Part shown: piece after piece, positions 1,904 through 26,194 of the stretch | Position numbering within the stretch: position 1 is the stretch's first letter | How the letters are laid out: every line of letters begins with the position of its first letter | Virus record (IMG/VR): IMGVR_UViG_3300046167_000208 | Location: 1-29,701 of that record | DNA: 29,701 nt | From: a virus | Strand: one strand, 5' to 3' | The notes under the pieces: model-generated | What the model saw: only the letters and a program-made list of their open reading frames with translations | Database searches by the model: none | What the model was told of the DNA's origin: nothing | Position numbers and translations under genes: made by a program

Positions 1904-3703
1904 ATGGCAACTCAGGTACAGTTCCGAAGAGGAAGCACGACACAGCACAACTCGTTCACCGGCGCTACCGGCGAGATCAGCGTTAACACTTCCACAGAAA
2001 CGCTGCATGTCCATGACGGTTCTACTGCCGGTGGCTTCCCGTTAGCAAGGGCAGACGGCAACAACGTCTCAAATTGGAGCGTAACGAACGTCGATGTGTC
2101 TGGCGCCTACGAGATGGACGGCACCACTATCATCAATACTAGCAGGCAGTTCGTCGGTGCTGGGCTACAGGTTGATACAACTGGTTCTAACGCTATTGAT
2201 TTCCAGATTGTTGATAGCCAAGCAGATGTTGGTTTCAACGGTGCTCGAATTGACTACACGAGCACAGGAAGCCAGACCCTAAGTGCTGACAGGGCTAAAG
2301 TCGCCTTATCCATCACCTCCGAAAGCGACGTTGCAGGGGGCGACACGGCTAACGAGCACCGGCTACATGGCATTCGGGCGATTACAAAAGCCACGGGCGA
2401 CTCGGACTTAATCTACGGCATCTACAACAGCGCCGAGGCAGAACAAACCACTGGAACCGTGTCTGCGCTACACGGAGCCTACAATCAAGCAGTCGCTGAC
2501 GCTGCTGCTGGGCAGATTACGAACAGTTACGGTTCATACAATCTAGCGAATCTATCTGCTAGTTCTGGCACGACCATCACAACCGCTTACGGTTCTTTTA
2601 GCATAGCTAATTTTTCTGTCACGCAAGAGTCCGACGTTACAAGAATGGTTGGCGCTTACGGTGAGATTCAAGTCGCGGCCTCGACAGGCCAAACGATAAC
2701 AAATGCGATGTGTATGGAGGCGCAGTTCGACAACAATTCTATTGGCGCTACGACAATAACCAACGGCTATCTGTTCTTCGGAAACTATACAGGCACTCTG
2801 CCCAGCAATGCGTGGGGCTTGTATATCAATGATAATGTCGATAGCTTCACTGCTGGCGGTTTTCTTTTTGGTGGAACTGACGTAACGCCTTGGAACAACA
2901 CAGGAACCGCTGACGGAGCTTACATTTCAGCGGAGGGACGCATCGGTGCGGCTAGTGTTAACAATTCGCCCATCGACGTGAACAGGTTGAGCAGCCGTGG
3001 CTCTATCATCCGCGCAAGGTTTAACGGCACTGAGGTCGGCAGTATTGCTTCTTTCGACCAAGGCGGGGTGGAGCGGGTTAGCTTCATCAACACAGATGAC
3101 AACGGTTTTGGAATCAGGCGAAGTGATTCCAACACCTATCAAATTGTGCCTATCGTAGCCGATGCCACTATCGCAACAGCCGACGCTGACTTAGGCCACG
3201 GAGATGCTCCTTGGCAAAATCTTCACTTGCACGGCGGAGTGTATTTTGATGGCGACACAGCAACGAATAAGCTGGACGCTTACGAAGAAGGGACGTGGAC
3301 GCCGACTTACACGACTTCCAACAGTGACGGGACGTTTACTTACGACGTTATACAGAAAGGATATTACACGTTGATAGGTAACGTGGTTCATGCGTCGTTC
3401 AGGCTGAGAACTGATGCTGTGAGCGGGGTCAGTGGAAACTTGTTAATCAGTGGTTTGCCATTCGCGGCAAAAAATGTGACTGGCGCAGGACAAGGTGGCT
3501 CACTTGTTGTTGGGCGAGCGTTCAACTTCGGAACCAATTATCCGGTTGGCGGTTATGTTTCGGACAACGCAGCAACAATCAGTGTCCAAGCATTGACATC
3601 GCTGAATGCAAACCCCGTCACAGCAGCCGCTGACATTTTGATAGTAGCCACTTCCGGCAACAAAAATGACCTGATGGCTCACATCGTATACGTAAAAGCA
3701 TAG
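1904..3703 (+). CDS. Tail fibre / receptor-binding protein
   Basis: A 599-residue protein. Residues 1-45 (TQVQFRRGS, then HDGSTAGGFPLA) match the N-terminal attachment module common in phage tail fibres. The middle has recurring AYGSYN-like motifs about 20-25 residues apart (residues about 165-300), consistent with a beta-helical or beta-prism shaft. From about residue 460 an EEGTWTPTYT segment, followed by a G-YY-x-LIGN-x-V pattern, marks a C-terminal domain seen in many fibre tips. It begins on the base after the preceding stop codon. It probably binds the cell surface. No peptidase or lyase catalytic motif was recognised. Confidence 0.85.
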   Translation: MATQVQFRRGSTTQHNSFTGATGEISVNTSTETLHVHDGSTAGGFPLARADGNNVSNWSVTNVDVSGAYEMDGTTIINTSRQFVGAGLQVDTTGSNAIDFQIVDSQADVGFNGARIDYTSTGSQTLSADRAKVALSITSESDVAGGDTANEHRLHGIRAITKATGDSDLIYGIYNSAEAEQTTGTVSALHGAYNQAVADAAAGQITNSYGSYNLANLSASSGTTITTAYGSFSIANFSVTQESDVTRMVGAYGEIQVAASTGQTITNAMCMEAQFDNNSIGATTITNGYLFFGNYTGTLPSNAWGLYINDNVDSFTAGGFLFGGTDVTPWNNTGTADGAYISAEGRIGAASVNNSPIDVNRLSSRGSIIRARFNGTEVGSIASFDQGGVERVSFINTDDNGFGIRRSDSNTYQIVPIVADATIATADADLGHGDAPWQNLHLHGGVYFDGDTATNKLDAYEEGTWTPTYTTSNSDGTFTYDVIQKGYYTLIGNVVHASFRLRTDAVSGVSGNLLISGLPFAAKNVTGAGQGGSLVVGRAFNFGTNYPVGGYVSDNAATISVQALTSLNANPVTAAADILIVATSGNKNDLMAHIVYVKA

Positions 3704-6491: not shown

Positions 6492-6698
6492 ATTTCTCCC
6501 CTGTTTGAATATCCATACTATGGGTCTTCATTTTTTTATAGGATATTTCGAGCCGTGAAATATCGCATTAAATGCCGCAGTCGGTCGCTTTGACGGTGAA
6601 TGTTGCGGGCCGTTAGCAAACGACCTATCTCTCATGCCCCAGAGGGGAGGCTGACGCTGCGGCTCGCCTGCCTGAATTACCCGCTGCGCAATAGTACC
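6492..6698 (-). other. Gap of about 200 bases in the leftward unit
   Basis: No confident gene lies here. On the minus strand a 35-residue frame (start 6635, stop 6528, beginning MRDRSFANGPQHSPSK) is preceded by a weak GGGG site; it has no recognisable features. The gap also holds a CCCCAGAGGGG hairpin (6637-6647) and a palindromic ATCCATACTATGG element (6510-6522) that recurs near 19727. This is probably an untranslated regulatory spacer. Confidence 0.4.
6510..6522. repeat. ATCCATA-S-TATGG palindromic element, copy 1
   Basis: The bases ATCCATACTATGG are an imperfect palindrome followed, after a few bases, by a T-run. A close copy (ATCCATAGTATGGAT, then CATTTTT) sits near 19726-19740, upstream of the scaffold promoter. 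On opposite strands the two share the 15-mer ATATCCATACTATGG. It could be an operator for a phage regulator. Confidence 0.45.
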
Positions 6699-6971: not shown

Positions 6972-7369
6972 AGATACTCCAAAATAATCGTTGTCAGCGC
7001 CGCTGATATGGCGGCTATTGCAGCAACTAGCGCAACTTCGCGCCATCCTGCGTTAGATAGCGCCTCATACGGCTCTATTTGCGCCCTCTCGGGCGTTTTA
7101 TTGACGGGTTGGTGCAAATCCACAGGTTCCGCACTAAACGCGTCTGTTTGACGCATTACTGCGTTCGCCACTACAAACTTCTTTTTGCAATGTTCAGTCC
7201 TTTGCAACTGTTTGCGATTTTGCATGTTCGTCAGAGCTTTTTTTACCTGTTTGCTGGATGCCCTGATATTGCGTTCCCGCAGTCTTTTGTGAATGCCGTT
7301 GTACGCTAGCGGGCCTTCCGCCAGCAAGATTTCATAGATGTCCTTTGCGAACCCCCTGTTTGGTTTCAT
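6968..7369 (-). CDS. Winged-helix protein with C-terminal membrane segment
   Basis: A 133-residue protein. Residues 5-60 (DIYEILLAEGPLAYNGIHKRL, then SSKQVKKALTNMQNRKQLQR) look like a winged-helix DNA-binding domain. After a polar linker the C-terminus (REVALVAAIAAISAALTTII) forms one membrane helix. This combination would tether a DNA-binding domain to the inner membrane and is unusual for a replication unit. Both ends overlap neighbours as ATGA, so it is coupled to the annealase upstream and the SSB-like gene downstream. Confidence 0.6.
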   Translation of the reverse strand: MKPNRGFAKDIYEILLAEGPLAYNGIHKRLRERNIRASSKQVKKALTNMQNRKQLQRTEHCKKKFVVANAVMRQTDAFSAEPVDLHQPVNKTPERAQIEPYEALSNAGWREVALVAAIAAISAALTTIILEYL

Positions 7370-7980
7370 TTGCTGCTGCCTCCCATGTTTTTGAGTTTCT
7401 TCTGATAGTCATCTGGCAACTTTGCCACGACAGCGGTTCGCAGGTTATCCGTAGCTTTCATTTCTTCAAAAATTGCCTTGATGCCTTCTGCGTCTGTACC
7501 AGCGTCCAGCATTCCTATTATCTTGGCTTTGTATTGGATAACTTTGTCTTCATCTACGGCGACAGGTTTTGGCGTGGGCGGCGCTGTTTTCTTATACTGC
7601 GACGTCGCTACGTTGCCGTCATCGTCCTCCTCGGCAGATATACCGCAGGCTAGACACAAACTGTATCTTTTCGCGTATGTCAGTGCAGAACCAAATCCAT
7701 GCGCGTTAGCTTTGCCGATAGGCACTGGCACAGGCCCAGTACAAATTTCCTCGCCATGTCCATAGAAACATGTTTCCACCGCTATGCCTGCTTCTGTCGG
7801 TACGCTTTTTTGTATGAGTGCAATGCCGAAGGCATTTAGGGCTGGTTTCACAGCGTCTAACACGCTCGACAGGCTGGCGTATTTGGTGTTGAACGCGGGA
7901 TTGTTTGAATCAAGTGCCGCGTGTGTCATCATTTTTTGCGCTTGCACAAATGCTTCAATCAGTGTTTGTTTTGAGTTCAT
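7366..7980 (-). CDS. erf: Erf-family single-strand annealing protein
   Basis: A 204-residue protein whose N-terminal 120 residues have the Erf signature: NPAFNTKYASLSSVLDAVKPAL, an FGIALIQ strand, then GSALTYAKRYSLCLACGI followed by an acidic EEDDDGN turn. Such proteins anneal complementary single strands during phage recombination and replication and pair with an exonuclease. A YqaJ-type exonuclease is encoded on the other arm of this genome, and an SSB-like protein lies two genes downstream. The C-terminal third is a linker plus a small helical domain. The ribosome site AAGGAAG precedes the ATG. Confidence 0.85.
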   Translation of the reverse strand: MNSKQTLIEAFVQAQKMMTHAALDSNNPAFNTKYASLSSVLDAVKPALNAFGIALIQKSVPTEAGIAVETCFYGHGEEICTGPVPVPIGKANAHGFGSALTYAKRYSLCLACGISAEEDDDGNVATSQYKKTAPPTPKPVAVDEDKVIQYKAKIIGMLDAGTDAEGIKAIFEEMKATDNLRTAVVAKLPDDYQKKLKNMGGSSK

Positions 7981-8146
7981 TCAATAGCTTCCTTATTTCG
8001 TTTTGGATGTAATCATATCTTTCGACTGAATTACGCGGGTGATCGCAGTCACGGAGGTTATCCATAAGCTGAGACGCGGGGAGCGGGACTAGCTCATCGT
8101 CTAGCCCTAGCTGATCTTCGAACATATCTGACTTGACGCGACCCAT
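7955..8146 (-). CDS. Hypothetical protein, 63 residues
   Basis: A small acidic helical protein (MGRVKSDMFEDQLGLDDEL, then RYDYIQNEIRKLLNELK). It starts one base inside the upstream stop codon (TAATG) and runs 26 bases into the annealase gene, so it is tightly coupled to both. No recognised domain. Its position suggests an accessory to recombination, but that rests on neighbours only. Confidence 0.6.
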   Translation of the reverse strand: MGRVKSDMFEDQLGLDDELVPLPASQLMDNLRDCDHPRNSVERYDYIQNEIRKLLNELKTNTD

Positions 8147-8580
8147 TATAGGATCTCCGTCAAGCAGCCGACCTGTCTGCCGTTGTGGTAGAAAAAGTAT
8201 TGGCGAGCGGGATTTGAGTTGATGACGTCAGCGCGTTCTAAGGCAGCGCCGATGTCAGACTCTTTGCCGTTGTGCTGATGTTGCATGGTTAGGAGCGCGT
8301 CGTTATTGCGCATGTATTCGACGACGAATTGCATTTCTTCGCGGTTTTCTGCGATAAGACCCTGAGGCCAGCCGTGAAACCCGCCATGCTCGTCTTGGCC
8401 GTACCAATGAACCTTAAACTCTCGGTCAAAGTCGCGAATCTTGTCGCCGCTGCAATACTCGCAGAAAGGCATCATTCGGCCCATGTCATCCTCGGCATAG
8501 GTGCAGACTTCGTGGCAAACACCACACATATCTGCATCTAGCGAGTGAGGGTTATGAAAGTGATAATCTTGACGTTCCAT
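8146..8580 (-). CDS. Hypothetical protein with N-terminal zinc-binding cysteines
   Basis: A 144-residue protein. Residues 19-43 hold CGVC and CEYC, a likely single zinc site, and residues 50-75 are rich in His, Trp and Gly (VHWYGQDEHGGFHGWPQG). The rest is helical. I do not recognise a family. A strong AGGAGGGG ribosome site precedes the ATG at 8580, just after a hairpin that surrounds the previous stop codon. Confidence 0.6.
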   Translation of the reverse strand: MERQDYHFHNPHSLDADMCGVCHEVCTYAEDDMGRMMPFCEYCSGDKIRDFDREFKVHWYGQDEHGGFHGWPQGLIAENREEMQFVVEYMRNNDALLTMQHQHNGKESDIGAALERADVINSNPARQYFFYHNGRQVGCLTEIL

Positions 8581-8594
8581 GTTAGTCCCCTCCT

Positions 8595-8612
8595 AAGCCG
8601 CTTACGCGGCTT
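8595..8612 (-). other. Hairpin at stop codon, copy 1 (shared 13-mer)
   Basis: The arms AAGCCGC and GCGGCTT enclose a four-base loop that contains the TAA stop of the 64-residue gene. The core CCGCTTACGCGGC recurs at 12670-12682 at the same place relative to another gene. There is no T-run, so it is not a standard terminator. It lies between a stop codon and the next ribosome site, so it might affect translation coupling or mRNA processing. Confidence 0.5.
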
Positions 8613-8796
8613 CTCCACAGGTTTTTAAGCAGATGGCAAGAATATCGCTAGCCAGTTCATCGCTGTCGCATTCGTAGATTCTTCGGTCACAGTTGACGTG
8701 TAGCATCTCTGCGTTGCGGTCAAGGTAAGCAAGAACCTCTCCCTCGTTTGACTTGATGATGCCGTTTTCCAAGATGTAAAAGTTGATTGTTAGCAT
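8602..8796 (-). CDS. Hypothetical protein, first gene of the leftward unit
   Basis: A 64-residue protein (MLTINFYILENGIIKSNEG at the start, CGEAA at the end). No known domain; it has alternating strand and helix character and three Cys. It is the first gene behind the leftward promoter, where phages often place small host-takeover or regulatory proteins. The ribosome site is GAGGAACG. Leader and stop-region sequences match those of the unrelated gene at 12674-13033. Confidence 0.6.
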   Translation of the reverse strand: MLTINFYILENGIIKSNEGEVLAYLDRNAEMLHVNCDRRIYECDSDELASDILAICLKTCGEAA

Positions 8797-8807
8797 GTCC
8801 GTTCCTC

Positions 8808-8824
8808 GTTGTTGATGGAATCAT
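8808..8824 (-). repeat. 17-base leader repeat, copy 1
   Basis: The minus strand reads ATGATTCCATCAACAAC, starting inside the -10 region and continuing through the likely transcription start. An exact copy is at 13045-13061, placed identically with respect to the promoter and start codon. It could be an operator or a leader RNA element. Confidence 0.75.
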
Positions 8825-8850
8825 TATAAACCTTGAGTGTAGTAAAACAA
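8823..8850 (-). promoter_or_regulatory. Leftward early promoter 1
   Basis: On the minus strand there is a perfect -10 box TATAAT (8828-8823), with TTGTTT (8850-8845) 16 bases upstream as a weak -35. The 17 bases covering the end of the -10 box and the leader (8808-8824) are identical to those of a second promoter at 13045-13061. Confidence 0.65.
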
Positions 8851-8884
8851 GTGACAAAATAAACTTTTTTTGTAAATAAATTCC

Positions 8885-8913
8885 TTGCACACTTTTGGTA
8901 TAGGCCGTATGGT
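8885..8913 (+). promoter_or_regulatory. Candidate rightward promoter for the YdaS-like regulator
   Basis: TTGCAC (8885-8890) and TATGGT (8908-8913) are 17 bases apart, a modest sigma-70 match. If used, transcription would start at or next to the ATG at 8921, giving a nearly leaderless mRNA. An alternative TATAGG (899-904 in the 8.8 kb block) has no good -35. Low certainty. Confidence 0.3.
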
Positions 8914-8920
8914 AGGTGGG

Positions 8921-9118
8921 ATGGAAACAGAAGCATTTAAGAAAGTAGTTCAGATCGTCGGTTCAAAGGCCGAGATAGCCAGACAATGTGGGGTAACAGA
9001 CCAACACATCCAGAAGTGGAAAAGCAAAGTTCCTGCTGTCCATGTGGTAAAATTGGAAAAGTTAACGGAAGGAATTGTTCGGCGCGAAGATCTACGGCCA
9101 GATGTGTTTTACGATTAG
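8921..9118 (+). CDS. YdaS/Cro-like helix-turn-helix regulator
   Basis: A 65-residue protein. The order AFKKVVQIVGSKAEIARQCGV (helix 1 and first HTH helix), TDQHIQKWKSKVPAVHV (recognition helix and turn), then GIVRREDLRPDVF at the end is the YdaS/Cro-type layout, including the final R-x-x-LRPD motif. I chose ATG 8921 because upstream residues of the longer frame fall in the promoter. It is the first rightward gene, divergent from the early leftward unit, the position of Cro in lambda. It probably binds operators in the 8797-8920 gap. No CI-size repressor is present. Confidence 0.8.
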   Translation: METEAFKKVVQIVGSKAEIARQCGVTDQHIQKWKSKVPAVHVVKLEKLTEGIVRREDLRPDVFYD

Positions 9119-9119
9119 C

Positions 9120-9176
9120 GGTCAGCCCCTTACCTATCCCCTCTCCCCCGTTGTTGTGGGGGGCTGGCCCTTTTTT
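9120..9176 (+). terminator. Intrinsic terminator after the regulator gene
   Basis: The arms GGTCAGCCCC (9120-9129) and GGGGCTGGCC (9160-9169) pair with one G-T wobble and are followed by C and six T. A second, inner pairing CCCCC with GGGGG across GTTGTTGT could compete. It separates the regulator from the recombination operon. Confidence 0.75.
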
Positions 9177-9477
9177 CACGGTTTGTCCTGCACCGAAAGC
9201 AGCAGAGGCCCGACAGGGTGCCGGTGGTTAGCCGGTTGGACGCAATGACCAAAGACAATTTGACAGAAGCTGGGCGCATTAGTGGGAGCGCCAAACTGAA
9301 CACTCGTTAATGGTGACAAAACTCTCCCCCTCTATTTTTAGATAGACAGGGGAGTGGGTCAGGTATGAGTCAGCCTCCATATACCGGAAAATGATTGAGT
9401 GAAAATACAGCCTGTTGATAGGGATATCCTAGTGGGTCACCTAACCCCACTAAATGACACGACGTGGGAGCAACAAA
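9177..9477 (+). other. Gap of 300 bases before the recombination operon
   Basis: No confident gene lies here. Short frames exist: a 21-residue frame from 9246, and a chain of overlapping mini-frames at 9365-9485 (9, 3 and 28 residues, the last starting GTG at 9399 with MKIQPVDRDILVGH). A hairpin CTCCCC / GGGGAG around an A/T-rich inner stem lies near 9331-9354. A TTGACA occurs near 9259 without a convincing -10. The operon promoter should be here or come from readthrough of the terminator, but I cannot place it. Confidence 0.4.
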
Positions 9478-9795
9478 ATGGATGACATGGATAATATTCT
9501 AAGTTTACTTAGTGAGCGTATATATGAGTGGGAGGGAGCAAGCAGGGAAGCAATTGAAGCGGAAACAACTTTTAAGTCTTACGAAGCGGCTGTCCAGAAA
9601 GCGCACATGGATTCTGGGTCAAGTGCTGCTAAAGCGCAAATTGAAACAAGATCAAGCAAGCGGTGGGCCGAGTACTACGGGGAAGTCCAGCGGGCCAACC
9701 TAGAAGCCGAAAAGGTGAAGAAGCTGATATCACTAACACAACTGATGTTTGACGCAGAGCGCACGAAACAAGCCAATCAGCGGAGGATTGTGTGA
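9478..9795 (+). CDS. Hypothetical coiled-coil protein upstream of the exonuclease
   Basis: A 105-residue, mostly helical protein with charged heptads (EWEGASREAIEAETTF, then EVQRANLEAEKVKKLISL). I chose ATG 9478 with GGGAG eight bases upstream over the in-frame ATG at 9454. The stop TGA overlaps the exonuclease ATG (TGATG), so both are co-translated. No known domain. Small helical proteins occur beside YqaJ exonucleases in other phages, so it may be an accessory, by context only. Confidence 0.65.
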   Translation: MDDMDNILSLLSERIYEWEGASREAIEAETTFKSYEAAVQKAHMDSGSSAAKAQIETRSSKRWAEYYGEVQRANLEAEKVKKLISLTQLMFDAERTKQANQRRIV

Positions 9796-10427
9796 TGTTA
9801 CAGGGCAGTGATGAATGGCACTTATCTAGAATAGGCAACCTGACCGCCAGCAGATGTCATGACGCGGTTGCCAGAACAAAGAGCGGGTATAGCGCATCGC
9901 GTTACAAACTGATGGATGAGCTTGTAAACGAAAGGCTAACAGGCGAGCGCAGGGTGATAACGCAAACCGCAGCGATGCAATGGGGCGTAGAAACTGAGCC
10001 TTTGGCGCGGCAAGCCTACGAGCAGATTCTGGGTGTCGATGTTTACGAAACTGGTAGTGTTCCGCACCCACTGATCGAAGAATCAAGTGCAAGCCCTGAC
10101 GGCTTGGTTAATGAAGACGGGCTGATAGAAATTAAATGCCCGAACACGACAACGATGGTCGATACGGTAATCAAGGGAAAGATACCTGCTGCCTACCAAA
10201 CGCAGATGATGTGGCAACTTGCCTGCACTCAGCGTGATTGGTGCGACTTCGTAATGTTTGACCCAAGACTGCCGGAAGGGCGCAACATCTGGATACAGAC
10301 ATTTGAGCCTTCACGGGAAGAAATAGAACTTCTTGAGTTGGCGGTAATAGAGTTCTTGCAGGAAACCCGCAACAGGGTACGCAGCTATCAGGAGTGCATC
10401 GACGCAAACTTCCAAGCCCACAGATGA
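9795..10427 (+). CDS. YqaJ-type (lambda Exo-like) recombination exonuclease
   Basis: A 210-residue protein of the PD-(D/E)XK nuclease fold. It starts with GSDEWHLSRIGNLTAS, as in YqaJ proteins. Catalytic elements are visible: E68 region (WGVETEPLAR), ASPDGL with D102, then the E112-x-K114 pair (IEIKCP) and YQTQMMWQL (Y134-x-Q136), followed by W-DFVMFDPR. The enzyme degrades one strand of duplex DNA to expose a strand for the annealase encoded at 7366-7980. GGAGG lies eight bases before the ATG. The next start overlaps its stop as ATGA. Confidence 0.9.
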   Translation: MLQGSDEWHLSRIGNLTASRCHDAVARTKSGYSASRYKLMDELVNERLTGERRVITQTAAMQWGVETEPLARQAYEQILGVDVYETGSVPHPLIEESSASPDGLVNEDGLIEIKCPNTTTMVDTVIKGKIPAAYQTQMMWQLACTQRDWCDFVMFDPRLPEGRNIWIQTFEPSREEIELLELAVIEFLQETRNRVRSYQECIDANFQAHR

Positions 10428-10855
10428 AGCGAAAGAAAACAGCCAGTTCAACTCTAAGATCTAAAGCGTTGAAAACGCTGCAAAAACTTGCAAGAATCGC
10501 GGCAGCAGACGACAACGGATATGCGCTTTGCGTTTCATGCGGTAAGGCGCAGCACTACAAAGAGATGGATGGCGGTCATTTTATACCGAAAGGATCTTCC
10601 AGCCGATGGGCGCTGGAGGAGCAGAACGTGCATCCGCAGTGCAAGGGGTGCAACGGTTTTGGAATGAAGCATGGCAGCGCGGAAGCGCAGTACACGATCT
10701 GGATGCTGGATTGGTACGGTAAAGAAGCTGTCGAATATATGCTAGCGACGAAGAAAGACCCCGTAAAGTTCTATACGGCAGACTACCGCGAGATGATTGC
10801 TGACTGGGAAGAACAGATCAAAGCACACGAGCGTCGTGTGGGTGAGCGCAGATGA
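10424..10855 (+). CDS. ninG: NinG/Rap-like recombination nuclease
   Basis: A 143-residue protein beginning MKRKKTASSTLRSKA. The pattern CVSCGK, GHFIPKGSSSRWAL, then NVHPQCKGCN and an aromatic C-terminal region (YTIWMLDWYGKEAVEYML) is that of lambda NinG (Rap), a zinc-containing HNH-related protein that acts on recombination branches. The Cys pairs CVSC and CKGC are the likely zinc ligands. Length is somewhat short against lambda NinG (about 200 residues). The start ATGA overlaps the exonuclease stop, and its own stop overlaps the next start in the same way. Confidence 0.85.
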   Translation: MKRKKTASSTLRSKALKTLQKLARIAAADDNGYALCVSCGKAQHYKEMDGGHFIPKGSSSRWALEEQNVHPQCKGCNGFGMKHGSAEAQYTIWMLDWYGKEAVEYMLATKKDPVKFYTADYREMIADWEEQIKAHERRVGERR

Positions 10856-11034
10856 GATCGCCACGGGCTGTTGCTGCTGACATGGTGAAGGCTATGGACG
10901 CAGCAGCCAAACAGGTCTGGGACGCAGAGCCAAAAAAAGAATCGGATGAAGGATTGAAGCGGCAGGTGTTTGCTCACGTCTGCAATTCTTACACGAGACG
11001 AGGCGAATATGGCAAGACCAAAGCTACCGACTGA
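10852..11034 (+). CDS. Hypothetical protein, 60 residues
   Basis: A small basic helical protein (MRSPRAVAADMVKAMDAAAKQ, then GLKRQVFAHVCNSYTRRGEY). It is coupled to NinG by an ATGA overlap and runs 26 bases into the next gene. No recognised domain. Confidence 0.55.
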   Translation: MRSPRAVAADMVKAMDAAAKQVWDAEPKKESDEGLKRQVFAHVCNSYTRRGEYGKTKATD

Positions 11035-11977
11035 TCCAGAGGTTTTTGCAGTAGAGTTCGAGGCGCTAGGTGCGACGAATGTGGCTGCTAAGTACAATGT
11101 GTCGGTCAGAAATGTGTTTGCTAAGCGCAAGCGGGTGGAGGGTATGTTGGGCAGGACTTTGAACGTCCCTGCGCACCTATCTAAGACCAACGGGCCTAGA
11201 AAGGCAGTTCGCCAGACGATGACTATCAAGAAAGACAAAACCTTCTTGATCGGGTCAGACTGCCACTACGAAGCAAACACTGTAACCACTGCTCACCTTG
11301 CCTTTGTTGAATTAGCCAAGCAACTCCAGCCAGATGTCATTGTCTTGAATGGTGACTTGATGGATGGGGCCAGTATCAGCCGTCACGCTCCGTTGGGGTG
11401 GGAGGAAAAGCCAACGGTAGAGCAAGAGCTAAACACCGTGACGCAAAGGCTTTCAGAGATTGAGAAGGCTGCGCCCAACGCGGAAAGATTTTGGACGATG
11501 GGGAATCACGATCAGCGCTTTGATATATCTTTGGCGCAGAATGCGGCGATGTTTCAGGGGGTCCCAGGGTTCAGCTTGAAAGACCACTTTCCTAGCTGGA
11601 CGTTCTGCATGTCCCTTTGGGTGGAGGGTGCGGAGAAGCCGATTATGATAAAGCATAGGTTCAATGGCGGAATCCACGCAGGGTATAACAACGCCCTAAA
11701 ATCTGGCGTTCACATGGTGACTGGGCACACTCATCAAATGGAGTGCAAGAGTTGGTCTGATTACAACTCTCACCGATATGGCGTTCAGTGTGGGACAATG
11801 GCAGACCCCCACCAGCCTTCATTTGATTACGCAGAGGATGGCCCGAAGAACTGGGTGTCGGGCTTTGTGGTTTTAGCTGTTCGTGATAACTTCCTGCTAA
11901 CCCCAGAGTTTGTAAAAGTTCACAAGCCAGCCGAATATGAATGGCGTGGCGAGATCCACAAAGTAGAATACGAATGA
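11009..11977 (+). CDS. Metallophosphoesterase with N-terminal helix-turn-helix
   Basis: A 322-residue protein. Residues 8-45 (EALGATNVAAKYNVSVRNVFAKRKR) are a helix-turn-helix. From residue 78 the calcineurin-like phosphoesterase motifs follow in order: GSDCH (D84, H86), NGD (115-117), GNHD (165-168), a His near 216 and GHTH (239-242). These bind two metal ions and hydrolyse phosphoesters; SbcD/Mre11 nucleases share the fold. Position in a recombination operon with an exonuclease and NinG suggests DNA as substrate, but nuclease activity is inference. ATG 11009 has GAGG upstream; the longer frame lies in the previous gene. Confidence 0.8.
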   Translation: MARPKLPTDPEVFAVEFEALGATNVAAKYNVSVRNVFAKRKRVEGMLGRTLNVPAHLSKTNGPRKAVRQTMTIKKDKTFLIGSDCHYEANTVTTAHLAFVELAKQLQPDVIVLNGDLMDGASISRHAPLGWEEKPTVEQELNTVTQRLSEIEKAAPNAERFWTMGNHDQRFDISLAQNAAMFQGVPGFSLKDHFPSWTFCMSLWVEGAEKPIMIKHRFNGGIHAGYNNALKSGVHMVTGHTHQMECKSWSDYNSHRYGVQCGTMADPHQPSFDYAEDGPKNWVSGFVVLAVRDNFLLTPEFVKVHKPAEYEWRGEIHKVEYE

Positions 11978-12174
11978 TGCGCGACATAGAAGCCACCGAG
12001 TACATCATCGCCAACCAACTAAATTATTTGAGTGGGCGAGTGGTTCACCTGATTACGGAATACGGGGCCACGAAAGACATCCAACTACTTGAGGAAGCCT
12101 GCCGTGATTTGGCGACCTTGGTTCAGCGGGAACGCTTTATAGAGGAGAGGTTTGGTGCCGACAGTTCTGATTGA
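11974..12174 (+). CDS. Hypothetical helical protein, 66 residues
   Basis: It begins MMRDIEATEYI at tandem ATG codons (11974 and 11977) that overlap the phosphoesterase stop. The protein is helical and acidic (IQLLEEACRDLATLVQRERF). No known domain. It is the penultimate gene of the rightward recombination unit. Confidence 0.55.
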   Translation: MMRDIEATEYIIANQLNYLSGRVVHLITEYGATKDIQLLEEACRDLATLVQRERFIEERFGADSSD

Positions 12175-12316
12175 GGATCTACCCAACAACTGTCAGGTGA
12201 CAGTCATCGTCTCAGATATCTACGAGGAGGAGCCAGACCCTAACCCTCCAGCGAAGATGCCAGAGGATCAGGAACGAGAAAATATCTGGTTGGTTAGCAA
12301 GAAGGCCGCAGATTAA
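12155..12316 (+). CDS. Small acidic protein, 53 residues
   Basis: A GTG-start frame (MPTVLIEDLPNNCQVTVIVSD, then EEEPDPNPPAKM and a final IWLVSKKAAD). A good GAGGAGAGG ribosome site ends four bases before the start. It overlaps the previous gene by 20 bases. The first 20 residues look like a beta-hairpin. Unknown function. Its 3' end overlaps the end of a leftward small gene by 23 bases, so the two units converge here. Confidence 0.5.
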   Translation: MPTVLIEDLPNNCQVTVIVSDIYEEEPDPNPPAKMPEDQERENIWLVSKKAAD

Positions 12317-12452
12317 GATAGTCCTCGTGGACACCATCACAGAATCGTTCTATGTATTGTTGCTCCTCCAGTAATTCGTTTTCATAGTCGTTATTACCGG
12401 CGATTAAGAAACCGACAATTAACAGCAGGGCGAGAGGGTAACGTAGTTTCAT
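12294..12452 (-). CDS. Small membrane or secreted protein, 52 residues
   Basis: Begins MKLRYPLALLLIVGFLIAG, a signal peptide or single membrane anchor, then an acidic periplasmic-looking tail (NNDYENELLEEQQYIERFCDG) and a final Cys. This N-terminal anchor plus DY-x-x-EL, Y-x-x-x-x-C-DG pattern recurs, as I recall, in small proteins of Pseudomonas and other phages; function unknown. Its start lies close to the end of the 68-residue gene upstream, so it is the third gene of the leftward cassette. Confidence 0.6.
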   Translation of the reverse strand: MKLRYPLALLLIVGFLIAGNNDYENELLEEQQYIERFCDGVHEDYLNLRPSC

Positions 12453-12655
12453 GCGCTTGCCTCCGATGCTTCTTTGCCGTTAGCGATACACGCGGCTATC
12501 GTTTTTTCGGCCAAATCTTCAGGCGCTAAGTCATAGGCCATCTGGCTAAAGAAAGTCAGGCCAGCAAAAATAACTTCCGCTGGGTTTTCGTCGTAAACCA
12601 TGCCGGTGATAGCAAGTAACGCTTGACGGTATTCACTCATTCTTTGTTCATCCAT
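12449..12655 (-). CDS. Hypothetical protein, 68 residues
   Basis: A helical protein (MSEYRQALLAITGMVYDENP, then FFSQMAYDLAPEDLAEKTI). The ATG is preceded by GAGGGGAAAG, just after the hairpin at the previous stop codon, and its stop overlaps the next start as ATGA. No recognised domain. It is the second gene of the leftward cassette. Confidence 0.55.
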   Translation of the reverse strand: MDEQRMSEYRQALLAITGMVYDENPAEVIFAGLTFFSQMAYDLAPEDLAEKTIAACIANGKEASEASA

Positions 12656-12669
12656 TACTTTCCCCTCGA

Positions 12670-12682
12670 CCGCTTACGCGGC
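12670..12682 (-). other. Hairpin at stop codon, copy 2 (shared 13-mer)
   Basis: CCGCTTACGCGGC again surrounds a TAA stop and precedes a GAGGGGA ribosome site, as at 8595-8612. The stem here is only four to five base pairs. The identical placement makes the match meaningful rather than random. Confidence 0.5.
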
Positions 12683-13033
12683 CTCCTGTGGATTAAATTG
12701 ATCGACGAAAAGATTTAATGGGCCGCCCCACTCCAACTCAAAATCTGCGCTGTCCCAAGATTGACGCTTGTAAGCGTAAACCCACCAAACCGAATGGCGT
12801 TTTTCTAGGTCGTAGTGGTATTCGGTATCGCCATGAGCTTCGTGACCGGCAGTGAGTTCTGCTCGCTCGTTAGCCCAAAGGAAGCAAGGGAGGAGGGGAC
12901 GTTTAGCTACACGCATGAAGTCCAGCGTGTTGCGAAAGTAGAGGGCAGCACCCTCGAAGTATCCATCGTGGTGGATGTAGAAGGTTGCGGTGCTGAAACC
13001 GCTTTTGATTTGATAAGTAGCTCGTGTAGACAT
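12674..13033 (-). CDS. Hypothetical protein, conserved phage family
   Basis: A 119-residue protein beginning MSTRATYQIKSGFSTATFYIHHDGYFEGAA. This start (STRATY, a strand, then Y-x-HHDGY-x-EGAA) is one I recall from conserved uncharacterised proteins in phages and bacteria. The C-terminal part has many aromatics (WWVYAYKRQSWDSADFELEWG). Function unknown. It is the first gene of the second leftward cassette, behind a promoter and leader copied from the one at 8.8 kb, but its protein is unrelated to the one there. Confidence 0.65.
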   Translation of the reverse strand: MSTRATYQIKSGFSTATFYIHHDGYFEGAALYFRNTLDFMRVAKRPLLPCFLWANERAELTAGHEAHGDTEYHYDLEKRHSVWWVYAYKRQSWDSADFELEWGGPLNLFVDQFNPQEAA

Positions 13034-13044
13034 TATGTTCCCCT

Positions 13045-13061
13045 GTTGTTGATGGAATCAT
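13045..13061 (-). repeat. 17-base leader repeat, copy 2
   Basis: Exact copy of the 8808-8824 sequence, again joined to a -10 box (TATTAT) and located about 12 bases before the start codon. Confidence 0.75.
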
Positions 13062-13087
13062 AATACACCAAAAGTTTATAAACACAA
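13060..13087 (-). promoter_or_regulatory. Leftward promoter 2
   Basis: On the minus strand TATTAT (13065-13060) is preceded, 16 bases upstream, by TTGTGT (13087-13082), the same geometry as promoter 1. The upstream half contains the palindrome GTTTATAAAC (13074-13083), a possible operator. The 145-base divergent gap to 13178 is very A/T-rich; a rightward promoter for the lysis/packaging unit should be here but I could not assign clear boxes. Confidence 0.55.
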
Positions 13088-13178
13088 AGGGAAAAAGGTA
13101 AAAAAAGGCACTTTTTTATAAAGTTTTCGTGTATTGTCAGCGGTTAGCACATAATTGAACCCAAAACAAGGATCATAA

Positions 13179-13583
13179 ATGGCTCTACTCCGTCGATTTG
13201 CATACCTAGAAAGCGGAACGCTAGGCAGGTTAACGATAGGTCACTGGGAATGCTTCACCATTGAGCGCCCTTGGAAAGATAATCAGCCGAACGTATCTTG
13301 TATCCCTGAAGGAGTTTATGCCTGTGAGCCGTTCAGTGGGGAAAGGTTCAAGGATGTGATACAAGTTATGGATGTGCCTGATCGCAGCTATATCCTGTTC
13401 CATGTGGCTAACTTTCCGTATGACATTGAGGGGTGTATTGGTGTCGGGGATACGTTTGTGTCAGATGCGCTAGAACCTGCTGTCTACAATTCCAAAAAGA
13501 CGCTGCAGAAGCTGATGGAGATATTTAACGGGCATCAAGAACGAATGACCCTGAAGATAACCGGCGTGAGGGCTGAGGTATGA
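13179..13583 (+). CDS. DUF5675-like protein, probable lysis enzyme
   Basis: A 134-residue protein. The order LLRRFAYLESGTLGRL, CFTIERPWKDN, VSCIPEGVY and then the motif ILFHVAN..YDIEGCIGVG (H75, D82, C86) fits the DUF5675 family. These proteins are frequent in phage lysis regions. The conserved His and Cys resemble a cell-wall cysteine enzyme active site, but I know of no proven reaction. It is directly followed by the holin gene with an ATGA overlap, which supports an endolysin-like role. No other endolysin was found. Confidence 0.7.
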   Translation: MALLRRFAYLESGTLGRLTIGHWECFTIERPWKDNQPNVSCIPEGVYACEPFSGERFKDVIQVMDVPDRSYILFHVANFPYDIEGCIGVGDTFVSDALEPAVYNSKKTLQKLMEIFNGHQERMTLKITGVRAEV

Positions 13584-14053: not shown

Positions 14054-14594
14054 TGCTAGAAGTCGCGTATATAGCCACAACGGACGTTATTCCGTACGCA
14101 AACAACCCGCGCACACACAGCGACCAACAGGTTGCGCAGGTAGCGGCGAGCATTCAGGAATTCGGGTTCAACAACCCGAATCCTTATTGATGAGCACAAT
14201 AGCATCATCGCAGGTCACGGCAGGCTGGCAGCAGCGCAGAAGCTAGGAATGAGCCTAGTGCCCACGATAACCCTTGAAGGGCTTACAGAAGCGCAGCGCA
14301 AAGGCGTATGTGATAGCAGACAACAAACTAACCGAGAACGGGGGGTGGGATTACGACCTGTTAGCGGTAGAGATTGAGCGTCTGGCAGAATTGGATATTG
14401 ATTTAACGCTGACAGGGATGGACGAAATAGAACTTGCCAAGATGTTCGATGAACCACAAGAGCATGTCGTTCAAGAGGTTGATTACGCTGAGTCTTTTTC
14501 CGTTGTCGTTGAATGTAGCAACGAATCGGAGCAGGAAAAAATCTTTAATCGTTTGGATTCGGAGGGGTATAAGTGCCGAGTTCAAAGTTTGTAA
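14053..14594 (+). pseudogene. ParB-N/sulfiredoxin-like domain protein, frame broken twice
   Basis: The first frame (from MLEVAYIATTDVIPYANNPR) runs to GFNNP near 14178 and then hits a stop. Removing one A near 14179 restores ILIDEHNSIIAGHGRLAAAQ, which carries the ParB-box AGHGR. A second single-base excess near 14299 (GG for G after AAA) must be removed to reach KAYVIADNKLTENGGWDYD and the C-terminal part. The repaired length is exactly 180 codons (179 residues). This is a ParB N-terminal (nucleotide-binding) domain without the DNA-binding HTH, the type found beside phage DNA methylases and modification genes. The two excess bases may be sequencing errors or real decay. It overlaps the ABC-GNAT start by 22 bases. 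Confidence 0.75.
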
Positions 14595-15649
14595 TCGAAT
14601 CAGAAACTAGCGGCACGTTCAGGGCCAATAAAATTAAGTCGATGTTTGACTGCGACATGGATGTTGTCACTAAGACATTCGATGTAAACATTCCAATAGA
14701 AGATGTTGATTGGAACATTGGATTGATTGTTGGAGCAAGCGGAACGGGAAAAACAACAATAGCCAAGCGAATGTTCAAGGATTACGAACTGTTCAGTGGT
14801 TATGAATGGTCGGGTGATAGCTTTGTTGATGATTTCAGTGAAATGTTAACCGCAAAACAGATAACAGAGGCGCTGTCCAAAGTTGGATTCTCGTCGCCGC
14901 CAGATTGGTTGAAGCCGTTTGGCGTGTTGTCCAATGGTCAAAAAATGCGAGCAGAGCTTGCAAGGTTGATCCTTGAAGCAGACAAGCCATTCATTTACGA
15001 CGAGTTCACGTCTGTGGTCGATAGATTGGTGGCGCGTTTGGGATCTTCTGCTATTCAGAAGTTTATCCGCAAGCAAGGTCGTAAGTTTGTTGCCGTTAGC
15101 TGTCATTATGACATCGAAGAGTGGCTGGAGCCTGATTGGGTGTTTAACTGCGATGATATGCAGTTTAGTCGGAGGCGTCTTAGGCGACCCGAAATTAGAG
15201 CAACAATCAGAAAAGCAAAGCAAAGAGAGTGGGCTGAGTTCATGGAGCATCACTATTTGACGCATTCACACAACAATGCGGCTCACAAATACATCTGCGA
15301 GATTGATGGTCGATCAGTTGCTTGGTGTTCGGTAATCCATTTCCCACACCCTATTGTCAAAGATATGAAGCGGATTCATCGAATTGTGGTTAAGCCAGAC
15401 TATCAAGGGATTGGTGTTGGAGCTGCGTTTATGGATGCAATAGCCGATTCATACAAGCAAAAAGGGTATCGGATGAGCTTGGTTACCAGTTCGCCCGCAT
15501 TTGTTCTCGGATTGCAGAAAAACCCCACTTGGGCAATGACTCGAAAGCCGTCGAGGTTGGCGCAACCTAAAACAGGCGATTTGAAAGCTTCTGCATCATC
15601 GGCTCGGTTAACGGCCAGCTTTGAATACGTTGGAGCGCGACATGTCTAG
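14573..15649 (+). CDS. ABC-type ATPase fused to GNAT acyltransferase, Mom-like DNA modification candidate
   Basis: A 358-residue protein with a GTG start and GGAGG seven bases upstream. Residues 45-185 are an ABC-type ATPase: Walker A GASGTGKT (54-61), signature-like LSNGQKMRAELARLI (119-133), Walker B FIYDEF (140-145) and switch His in SCHYD (178). There are no membrane helices, so it is not a transporter. Residues about 205-330 are a GNAT domain with RIVVKPDYQGIGVG (270-283), the acyl-CoA binding loop. Mu Mom, which modifies adenine in phage DNA, is a GNAT-fold enzyme. The coupled ParB-like gene and the following terminase suggest DNA modification before packaging. Substrate and chemistry are inference. 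Confidence 0.75.
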   Translation: MPSSKFVIESETSGTFRANKIKSMFDCDMDVVTKTFDVNIPIEDVDWNIGLIVGASGTGKTTIAKRMFKDYELFSGYEWSGDSFVDDFSEMLTAKQITEALSKVGFSSPPDWLKPFGVLSNGQKMRAELARLILEADKPFIYDEFTSVVDRLVARLGSSAIQKFIRKQGRKFVAVSCHYDIEEWLEPDWVFNCDDMQFSRRRLRRPEIRATIRKAKQREWAEFMEHHYLTHSHNNAAHKYICEIDGRSVAWCSVIHFPHPIVKDMKRIHRIVVKPDYQGIGVGAAFMDAIADSYKQKGYRMSLVTSSPAFVLGLQKNPTWAMTRKPSRLAQPKTGDLKASASSARLTASFEYVGARHV

Positions 15650-19710: not shown

Positions 19711-19717
19711 AAAATAG
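19643..19717 (+). CDS. Nested 24-residue Lys-rich basic peptide gene
   Basis: In a different frame inside the end of the 83-residue gene, an ATG with AGGA nine bases upstream opens a frame starting MPSHYGHSKTKKKKP and ending in KKKAKK, with about half of all residues Lys or Arg. From memory, very short proteins beginning MPxHYG and rich in Lys occur in marine phages, often near head genes. A nucleic-acid binding role is plausible. The frame could be chance in an A-rich stretch. Confidence 0.45.
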   Translation: MPSHYGHSKTKKKKPMNRKKKAKK

Positions 19718-19725
19718 ATTGGAGA

Positions 19726-19740
19726 TCCATAGTATGGATA
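19726..19740. repeat. ATCCATA-S-TATGG palindromic element, copy 2
   Basis: ATCCAT-AGT-ATGGAT is a perfect inverted repeat with a three-base centre, followed by CCCATTTTT. It lies about 20 bases upstream of the -35 box of the scaffold promoter. The second copy is at 6510-6522. Operator or weak terminator are both possible. Confidence 0.5.
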
Positions 19741-19762
19741 TCCCATTTTTCACCATCAGCTA

Positions 19763-20509: not shown

Positions 20510-21343
20510 ATGGCTGCTACAACAAGCACAACCCTTGACGACCTGTTTGCGAATATCATCGCTCAGGCACGATTCACCGCTGAAGAAGAATCCCTAATGA
20601 TGGGATTGGTGACGCAGTACAACATCGGCGACGAAGCCGGCAAGACGATTCAGGTGCCAAAATACCCTGCAATCACTGCCGCTGACTTGACGGAAGGCAC
20701 CGACCTGACCAGCACGACTGTTTCTACTTCCTCTGTTGACATCACTGTTGGTGAAGTTGGCGCACAGGTAGTATTGACCGACTTGGCTGCTATGGGTGCT
20801 GGCAACCCTGCTGAAGAGTTGGGTACGGTACTAGGTAACGCTATCGCCACCAAGATGGATGCAGACCTGATTGCTTTGTTCGATGGGTTCAGCACTTCCT
20901 TCGGCGCTGCCGCTCAAGAGATCACTGTAGCTGATCTGTTCAAGGCTGCTGCTACCTTGCGTAACAACAAGGCACAAGGCGACATCTTCGCGGTTGTAAA
21001 CCCTTTCCAAGCGTACCAACTGAAAGCCAACCTAACCAATACCTTCGCTAACCCCAACGGTGGTGACGCGCAGAACACGGCTATGGTTAACGCTTACGTT
21101 GGAACCATCGCTGGAATCGACATCTACGAGTCATCCAATGTGACTGTAGACGGTTCTGGTGACGCGAAAGGCGCTGTCTTCTCACGCGAGGCTTTGGCTA
21201 TCGCTATGAAGCGTGACTTCCAGATCGAAGCACAACGAGACGCATCCCTACGGGCCTTCGAGCTTAACGCTACCGCCATCTACGGTGTGGGCGAGCTTGA
21301 CGACACCTACGGCTGCGAGATGTTGTTCGACGCTAGCATCTAG
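20510..21343 (+). CDS. Major capsid protein (HK97 fold)
   Basis: A 277-residue protein. Typical features: an N-terminal helix region, a segment GKTIQVPKYPAITAADLTEG (E-loop and P-domain beginning), VDITVGEVGAQVVLTDLAA, a spine-helix region (AEELGTVLGNAIATKMDADL), AVVNPFQAYQL (A-domain) and a C-terminal strand (AFELNATAIYGVGELD). There is no visible delta domain or protease gene, so maturation probably uses the separate scaffold. It is on a short transcript bounded by the promoter at 19763 and the terminator at 21351. Confidence 0.9.
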   Translation: MAATTSTTLDDLFANIIAQARFTAEEESLMMGLVTQYNIGDEAGKTIQVPKYPAITAADLTEGTDLTSTTVSTSSVDITVGEVGAQVVLTDLAAMGAGNPAEELGTVLGNAIATKMDADLIALFDGFSTSFGAAAQEITVADLFKAAATLRNNKAQGDIFAVVNPFQAYQLKANLTNTFANPNGGDAQNTAMVNAYVGTIAGIDIYESSNVTVDGSGDAKGAVFSREALAIAMKRDFQIEAQRDASLRAFELNATAIYGVGELDDTYGCEMLFDASI

Positions 21344-25591: not shown

Positions 25592-26194
25592 ATGACTACT
25601 TTCGCCTTCCCTGACATCATTCCTACGAGTAGCACGTTTGAGCTTGTATCCAACACGCGGGTTTTCCAGTCCCCGCTCACTAACGCTGTCCAAACAAGCT
25701 CTCGCAAGGGTTCCATGTGGAAAGCTACTTTGCAGTTCAACAACCTGACAGGCGATCAGCGAGCAGAGATGCAGGCGTTTCTAGTTAAGCTCAACGGGCA
25801 GCAGCATAGATTTGAGTTGAAAGATCACTCGTATACTAGGCGAGGCGCTGGAGGTGGGACTCTGCGAGTCAACGGTGGTAGTCAATCAGGTACCACTCTC
25901 CTCTGTGATGGCGCGACGGCTAGTGTTAACAATTATTTGAGAGCTGGTGATTACATCAGCTTCGACGGTCAGCTGTATATGGTTGTCGCTGACGCCAACA
26001 GCGATGTCGCTGGGCAAGTAACGCTATCAATAGCTCCCCCACTAAGGTTTTCGCCGGTTAATAATAGGATCGTTACATATTCGGGTGATGTTGAAGGTGT
26101 TTTCATGCTGGGCGGGTCGGCGTCTTGGGATACGCAGCTAGGCATAGTTTCTAATTTTACACTCGAAGCGGTACAGGATGTTCTAGCAACATGA
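25592..26194 (+). CDS. Distal tail / minor tail protein
   Basis: A 200-residue beta-rich protein. It starts MTTFAFPDIIPTSSTFELV, then a strand-rich N-terminal part (MWKATLQFNNLTGDQRAEMQAFLVKLNGQQ), an inserted middle domain (GTLRVNGGSQSGTTLLCDGA) and a C-terminal SFTLEAVQD-like strand. Its place after the tape measure corresponds to lambda gpM or a distal tail protein that joins tube to tip. It starts on the base after the tape measure stop, and its own stop overlaps the next ATG. Confidence 0.65.
   Translation: MTTFAFPDIIPTSSTFELVSNTRVFQSPLTNAVQTSSRKGSMWKATLQFNNLTGDQRAEMQAFLVKLNGQQHRFELKDHSYTRRGAGGGTLRVNGGSQSGTTLLCDGATASVNNYLRAGDYISFDGQLYMVVADANSDVAGQVTLSIAPPLRFSPVNNRIVTYSGDVEGVFMLGGSASWDTQLGIVSNFTLEAVQDVLAT

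Follow-up and report, generated by a model that had tools for sequence, protein, structure and literature searches.

Small genes between a shared leader and a stop-codon hairpin in a 29.7-kb virus record: likely exchangeable cassettes

In lambdoid phages, short conserved boundary sequences lie between exchangeable modules and have been proposed as anchors for modular recombination; in integrons, cassettes of a single open reading frame (ORF), each with a hairpin-forming attC border at its 3′ end, stand head to tail behind a promoter. The promoter early stem-loops (PeSLs) of T4-type phages were reportedly described by Arbiol in 2010 and Comeau in 2014. In one account, a conserved promoter and a stem-loop border small unknown ORFs in regions of high variability, and gene shuffling is attributed to them (PMC4503421). 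In Cluster K mycobacteriophages, the 13-bp conserved repeats named SAS/ESAS stand at gene borders of unrelated families and are almost absent from the host (PMC3203893). Here we describe virus record IMGVR_UViG_3300046167_000208 of IMG/VR, which is 29.7 kb long and was analysed over its whole length (positions 1 to 29,701, the window). Its two leftward transcription units, beginning at 8796 and 13033, share a promoter-proximal leader, and the first gene of each ends in a hairpin that carries the stop codon in its loop. As with the PeSLs, a conserved promoter and a stem-loop flank small ORFs of no known family. We consider it likely, with good confidence, that the units are single-ORF exchangeable cassettes behind a conserved promoter, with the leader and the stop hairpin as borders; we propose that they move by homologous exchange, that the hairpin has a role in RNA, and that the two units are co-regulated.

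Occupants of the two sites

An earlier note had reported copied borders around unrelated genes across positions 8595–13087. That finding is real, and its idea of exchangeable cassettes is right; what is new is the stop codon inside a hairpin loop and the exchange of single ORFs. The borders stood up to analysis and the single 4.5-kb unit did not, for there are two separate short cassettes, at about 8595–8850 and 12668–13087, made up as follows.

8845..8850, minus strand: −35 TTGTTT of the site-1 leftward promoter, read from the sequence, with a 16-nt spacer to the −10
8823..8828, minus strand: −10 TATAAT of the site-1 promoter, read from the sequence
8797..8824, minus strand: site-1 leader and 5′ border, CCATCAACAACGAGGAACGGAC plus Shine–Dalgarno sequence (SD), running up to the ATG from near the expected start of transcription; exact 17-mer in common with 13045–13061
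8602..8796, minus strand: cassette ORF A, 64 aa, of no known family; also carried by sibling G009, there at site 2
8595..8612, minus strand: stop hairpin and 3′ border of cassette A, AAGCCGC-GTAA-GCGGCTT, with TAA in the tetraloop
13082..13087, minus strand: −35 TTGTGT of the site-2 promoter, read from the sequence
13060..13065, minus strand: −10 TATTAT of the site-2 promoter, read from the sequence
13034..13061, minus strand: site-2 leader and 5′ border, from the shared leader and switch-point alignments
12674..13033, minus strand: cassette ORF B, 119 aa, no known family by protein and profile searches
12668..12683, minus strand: stop hairpin and 3′ border of cassette B, GGCCGC-GTAA-GCGGTC

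Four sibling genomes (G001, G009, G015 and G036) have the window's backbone, with terminases matching at 84–99% and the protein of 20510–21343 at 100%; a fifth, G003, is more distant. At site 1, beside the ydaS gene, the window has the leader, the 64-aa gene and the hairpin. G009 and G015 carry a 74-aa gene and hairpin there, as does G036 together with one more gene, and in G001 and G003 the site is empty, the leader being followed directly by a resident 144-aa gene and no hairpin. Site 2 is occupied by the 119-aa gene and hairpin in the window and G001, by a 91/92-aa gene and hairpin in G036 and G015, and in G009 by the window's own site-1 gene (64 aa, at 89%), again with the hairpin. Alignments place the switch points at the borders. 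For example, G009 and G015 at site 2 are identical in promoter and leader through the ATG, have unrelated ORFs, and return to identity at GAGGCCGCGTAAGCGGCC, the hairpin; between site 1 of the window and site 2 of G009, identity is unbroken from CCATCAACAACGAGGAACGGACATG and fades at the hairpin and SD. The hairpin travels with the cassette, and the empty site has none. Different genes between the same flanks, an empty site, and the same cassette at a second site were all found, and the suggestion of exchangeable cassettes with conserved borders is borne out by siblings that carry other genes or none and by the 64-aa gene's change of site in G009. The neighbours of the two sites in the window are these.

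8146..8580, minus strand: resident 144-aa gene after site 1, directly behind the leader in the empty-site siblings
12449..12655, minus strand: 68-aa gene after cassette B, absent at site 2 of G009, G015 and G036
12294..12452, minus strand: resident 52-aa gene (MKLRYPLALLL) after site 2, its family standing behind 9 different upstream families across the hairpin
13179..13583: DUF5675 gene beside site 2, an endolysin-like neighbour by position

Partners also change at hairpins elsewhere. Over 195 hairpin instances, with 134 families on both sides together, at least two different downstream partners were seen for 26 of 72 upstream families, and at least two different upstream partners for 27 of 85 downstream families; the 119-aa family alone has 11 different families after it and 5 before it at hairpin junctions. 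At junctions with a common upstream gene but different downstream genes, identity runs at about 0.9 up to the hairpin, rises to 0.97–0.99 inside it, and drops to background about 15–20 nt past it. The mirror case, with the downstream gene shared and the upstream gene not, gives a similar profile.

The borders in the window and in other viruses

The exact 17-mer of the leader occurs at 8808–8824 and 13045–13061 and nowhere else in the window, and the promoter geometry is as the earlier note had it, with a 16-nt spacer at both sites and a −10 of TATAAT at site 1 and TATTAT at site 2. The 17-mer sits within a 52-nt repeat of 75% identity that spans the −35/−10 region and leader of both units. Its repetition is beyond chance in the window, a Markov resample giving 0.02 expected exact 17-mer repeats against 3 observed, two of which are the product of a separate 18-bp repeat. 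In promoter context, more than 20 unrelated gene families stand behind the leader, which itself occurs with three or more distinct promoter sequences (the survey listed 30 families, several of which are chance matches without a promoter). Among the 14 stretches listed with the exact 17-mer, most were set aside as coincidental, lying within other genes or lacking a promoter, and only L003 and L064 have true leaders; the informative part is the shorter CCATCAACAAC in promoter context.

At the other end, both first genes finish in GCCGCGTAAGCGG(C/T), a 6–7-bp hairpin whose GUAA loop contains the stop codon UAA. The earlier note had seen here an exact 13-mer, and CCGCTTACGCGGC is indeed confined in the window to 8598–8610 and 12670–12682, at both first-gene stops, but it is an RNA hairpin. 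As evidence in its own right the 13-mer was dropped, since about nine 13-mer repeats are expected by chance in the window; it is real through its position at both stops and its recurrence elsewhere. The shared EAA C-terminus of the 64-aa and 119-aa proteins, also noted earlier, is present because the hairpin sequence reads GAR GCC GCG TAA; neither protein has a match in Pfam or PHROGs. Predicted folding energies of 37-nt fragments are −12.8 kcal/mol for hairpin A and −11.2 kcal/mol for hairpin B. None of the window's 10 other leftward genes ends in the hairpin, and neither window copy is followed by the U-run of an intrinsic terminator.

In IMG/VR the GAGGCCGCGTAAGCGGC pattern was found in at least 120 viral stretches. 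Within the loci examined, 166 of 171 hairpins supply the stop codon of an ORF of 30 codons or more, these ORFs falling into 71 protein clusters; behind most hairpins come an SD and then the start of another gene, at a median distance of 19 nt from the stop. A strict query of hairpin, SD and ATG matched 76 viral stretches and had 2 hits in 84,980 bacterial and archaeal genomes (257 Gb), so a host-derived repeat was rejected and the hairpin is taken as a virus feature. When relatives of the 119-aa protein were fetched by protein sequence, nearly all close cases had the hairpin at the stop and a differing next gene, with three relatives (L021, L027 and L028) lacking the hairpin; other genes, upstream of the 119-aa homologues, also terminate in it, and relatives of the 64-aa gene likewise keep the hairpin at the stop with differing next genes. 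Both borders recur, with many other genes enclosed. Up to five hairpins were counted in one 8-kb contig (G018/L090), and orientation is common within most records. A TTTT run lies within 12 nt of 11 of 247 hairpins; some of these are probably terminators, and most hairpins are intercistronic.

Several observations on individual contigs belong here. A run of 7–8 T stands behind the stop hairpin in L072, L177, L090 (5075) and L259, where the stop coincides with a terminator-like hairpin. A structural-looking gene (family F7) ends in the same stop hairpin in L078, L084, L117, L119, L144 and L150, records of about 35 kb; with the same next gene each time, this is apparently a vertically kept, non-cassette case. 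In L003 (upstream of 115), L004 and L229, the gene before the 119-aa homologue ends in GAGGCCGTGTAATG, which is the left hairpin half fused to the next ATG (a TAATG overlap), like the junction minus its right arm. GenBank phages gave no DNA match to the region, to the promoter and leader or to the hairpin junction, nor did the 119-aa protein have a match there; a query with the second-class junction described below returned only hits of E = 4, of which that in Sphingobium phage Lacusarx was taken as chance after its annotation was checked. Phage DSL-LC06, a terminase relative, is without hairpin and leader.

What, then, might such a hairpin do? Across 1269 gene junctions, a tetraloop stem of at least 5 pairs occurs 187 times at the offset that puts xTAA in the loop and 0–7 times at others, the height of the peak (187/1269) being partly ascertainment. 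All five pairs are kept in 157 of 159 junction hairpins, a set picked solely by similarity to the consensus. Variant stems show G–U wobbles and compensated pairs (GCGGC/GCCGC, GCAGC/GCTGC and GCCTC/GAGGC), some loops have TAG in place of TAA, and the covariation score exceeds that of all 500 shuffles and all slid versions. One compensated form, GCGGC-GTAA-GCCGC, makes up a second class in 49 viral stretches. Loci with several hairpins mostly keep to a single stem class (51 of 54), with 3 mixed loci seen against 18.7 expected. From this covariation and from the hairpin's position, we infer that it works in the mRNA, most likely as a 3′-end or intercistronic stability or processing hairpin, and as a full terminator where a U-run is present. 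The second-class contigs include L228, L152, L284, L253, L259, L261, L267, L274 and L275, and in several second-class contigs the hairpin is followed by a recurrent leader of their own, TTCACAACCAGCAAGGAG, ahead of different genes.

Exchange, regulation and rival explanations

In the mechanism that we propose, the 5′ border would be the promoter-proximal leader CCATCAACAAC, followed by SD and ATG, and the 3′ border the stop hairpin GGCCGC-GUAA-GCGGCC, followed by the SD of the next gene, whose start lies about 20 nt after the stop. Because all cassette ORFs enter the hairpin in the frame GCC GCG UAA, a crossover within it would spare both the upstream stop and the downstream SD; being harmless, such a crossover would allow unrelated small genes to be swapped, gained or lost with the operon unbroken. 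Exchange would proceed by homologous recombination across the short borders, assisted by the common flanking backbone and carried out by the phage's own annealing protein and exonuclease:

7366..7980, minus strand: Erf-type annealing protein, candidate recombinase (PF04404, 3e-19; PHROG 2324/155)
9795..10427, plus strand: YqaJ-type exonuclease, candidate partner of the annealing protein (PF09588, 4e-26)

Homologous recombination would be an economical reading, since the genome encodes both proteins and the leader and hairpin offer short homology on the two sides. More tentatively, and with some doubt on our part, the hairpin may be a widespread element that is at once translation end, mRNA 3′ hairpin and recombination joint of small accessory genes, with lineage-specific stem dialects (GCCGC/GCGGC) and exchange mainly within a dialect.

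The earlier note had also suggested control of both units by one factor, for which there is circumstantial support. Matches to TACACCAAAAGTTT (with up to 3 mismatches) number 6 in the window against 2.4 expected, 5 of the 6 lying in the two promoter regions, although the consensus was picked after viewing the promoters and the count is not an independent test. Three of the sites, at 8828, 8861 and 8889, lie between ydaS and the site-1 promoter, and two, at 13064 and 13120, lie at site 2:

8828..8841, minus strand: operator-like repeat TACACTCAAGGTTT, adjoining the site-1 −10
8861..8874, minus strand: operator-like repeat TACAAAAAAAGTTT
8889..8902, minus strand: operator-like repeat TATACCAAAAGTGT, upstream of ydaS
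13064..13077, plus strand: operator-like repeat TACACCAAAAGTTT, over the site-2 spacer
13120..13133, minus strand: operator-like repeat TACACGAAAACTTT
8921..9118, plus strand: YdaS/P22-Cro-like regulator (PF15943, 2e-19; PF14549, 2e-8)

In G001, G009, G015 and G036, site 1 has three TACACCAAAAGTTT-like sequences and site 2 one or two, and this same layout in siblings with partly diverged promoters is the better evidence for co-regulation. A TACACCAAAAGTTT-like site adjoining each −10 would suit a repressor. The protein of 8921–9118 passes the cut-offs of both families (PF15943, 69.5 bits against 30; PF14549, 34.7 against 30.2), and both promoters may be under one regulator, probably this YdaS/Cro-like protein, acting through the putative TACACCAAAAGTTT sites.

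How do other explanations fare? It is possible, if rather doubtful, that hairpin and leader are purely expression elements under selection (a stable intercistronic or terminator hairpin and a strong 5′ UTR), that swapping around them is ordinary phage mosaicism of a kind that gene ends tolerate, and that the borders have no role in exchange. Selection on RNA pairing, and not on one DNA sequence, is what the compensatory changes and the second stem class show; the hairpins with a nearby TTTT (11 of 247), some of them probable terminators, and a leader common to three promoter types fit this explanation as well. Against it, the hairpin comes along with the cassette and the empty site lacks it, and 51 of 54 multi-hairpin loci are single-class, with 3 mixed against 18.7 expected. 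Partner switching is also much higher at hairpins: of the pairs with 70% identity or more ahead of the stop, 31 of 49 with a hairpin have different next genes, compared with 350 of 1613 at other gene ends of the same loci, a ratio that is indicative, because the pairs are non-independent and motif fetching favours diverse contexts. This caveat weighs against exchange at the borders, as do several further points. For most hairpin loci the motif itself was the means of fetching them, which biases the counts, and near-identical contigs inflate these; only the protein-fetched relatives and the sibling comparison are largely free of motif-fetch bias. In a 71-nt context hairpin A folds no better than shuffles (z −0.2), and hairpin B does better (z −3.25). 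For known annealing proteins a hairpin of 16–18 bp is a short target, so most of the homology used may come from the flanks, and part of the leader sharing could be kept by selection for expression and not for exchange. Finally, what we say of recombination, transcripts and proteins in the exchange is drawn from sequence only.

The remaining explanations are far less probable. A dedicated site-specific recombination system acting on the hairpin in the style of integrons and attC would account for hairpins at the 3′ ends of single-ORF cassettes, for as many as five of them in 8 kb, and for their mostly common orientation per record, but we think it very improbable: the hairpin, of 14–18 nt with a 4-nt loop, is too short to be an attC site, neither a GTTRRRY core nor attC-like bulges were seen, Rfam holds no match, the two stem classes are used alike, and no integrase-like gene was recognised among the window proteins scanned. 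Selection on the EAA C-terminus of the proteins, for example as a ClpXP-type degron, draws on the fact that nearly all cassette proteins end in -AA, as do ssrA-type tags. We rejected this idea, to which we give hardly any credence, as conservation extends beyond the stop into GCGGC, holds to the exact nucleotide within each class, and shows stem changes compensated across the stop; the second class (GCGGC) keeps the residues AA, with the bases before and after the stop changed in concert. Just as implausible is a shared regulator with no exchange, in which the promoter regions were duplicated in the genome and kept for co-regulation. The presence of TACACCAAAAGTTT-like sites at the two promoters of the window, and likewise of four siblings, agrees with it, but it leaves the changed occupants, the empty site and gene A at site 2 of G009 unexplained and is contradicted as the sole explanation; co-regulation may exist in addition to exchange. 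Exchangeable single-ORF cassettes remain the explanation that we favour.

Further features of the window lie outside these questions. Its terminase is closest to those of HTVC111P-type pelagiphages. The 14573–15649 protein fuses an ABC-type ATPase part to a GNAT acetyltransferase part and is unmatched in ten genomes compared, and the 1904–3703 protein has an N-terminal major tropism determinant domain (PF18454). An exact 18-bp direct repeat, CGGCTAGTGTTAACAATT, occurs at 2949–2966 and 25917–25934, 23 kb apart, and a 29-nt inverted repeat at 6509–6537 and 19713–19741 is 83% complementary, with cores ATATCCATACTATGG.

Significance and comparison with known systems

With the two borders, small accessory genes of uncultured phages can be searched for by a concrete signature, as anything between a CAACAAC leader and a stop hairpin, and most such genes are recognised by no family library. 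One hairpin-ended cassette gene, at L106 2314 (minus strand), encodes an ArdC-type antirestriction protein (PF08401, PF18818), and its presence in the pool suggests that other members may act against host defences. The existence of siblings with filled, empty and exchanged sites opens to direct testing the old question of whether conserved borders drive phage mosaicism.

A literature search, with subscription papers outside its reach, found no earlier description of a stop-in-loop hairpin border. The SAS repeats stand at gene starts and contain the SD, and their extended inverted repeats do not support RNA pairing (PMC3203893), whereas the repeat described here lies on the stop codon and its covariation supports pairing. 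In contrast to the boundary sequences of lambdoid phages, the border here is one hairpin that includes the stop codon and recurs at the ends of about 70 unrelated ORF families. The likeness to integrons lies in single-ORF cassettes with a 3′ hairpin border behind a promoter; the differences are that no integrase was seen among the scanned window proteins, that no attC core was seen, and that a tetraloop hairpin of 14–18 nt overlaps the stop codon. The PeSL cassettes of T4-type phages are the closest known kind. In a PeSL, promoter and stem-loop share one intergenic space, whereas here they stand on opposite ends of one ORF, and the hairpin holds the stop in its loop, usually has no U-run behind it, and precedes the SD of the next gene. 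In the PeSL and SAS accounts cited here, no stop codon lies within a hairpin loop. The PeSL phages are of T4 type, whereas those considered here are unrelated phages of about 30 kb (29.7 kb for this record), and, unlike PeSL descriptions, the sibling sets here show sites that are empty, filled and exchanged.

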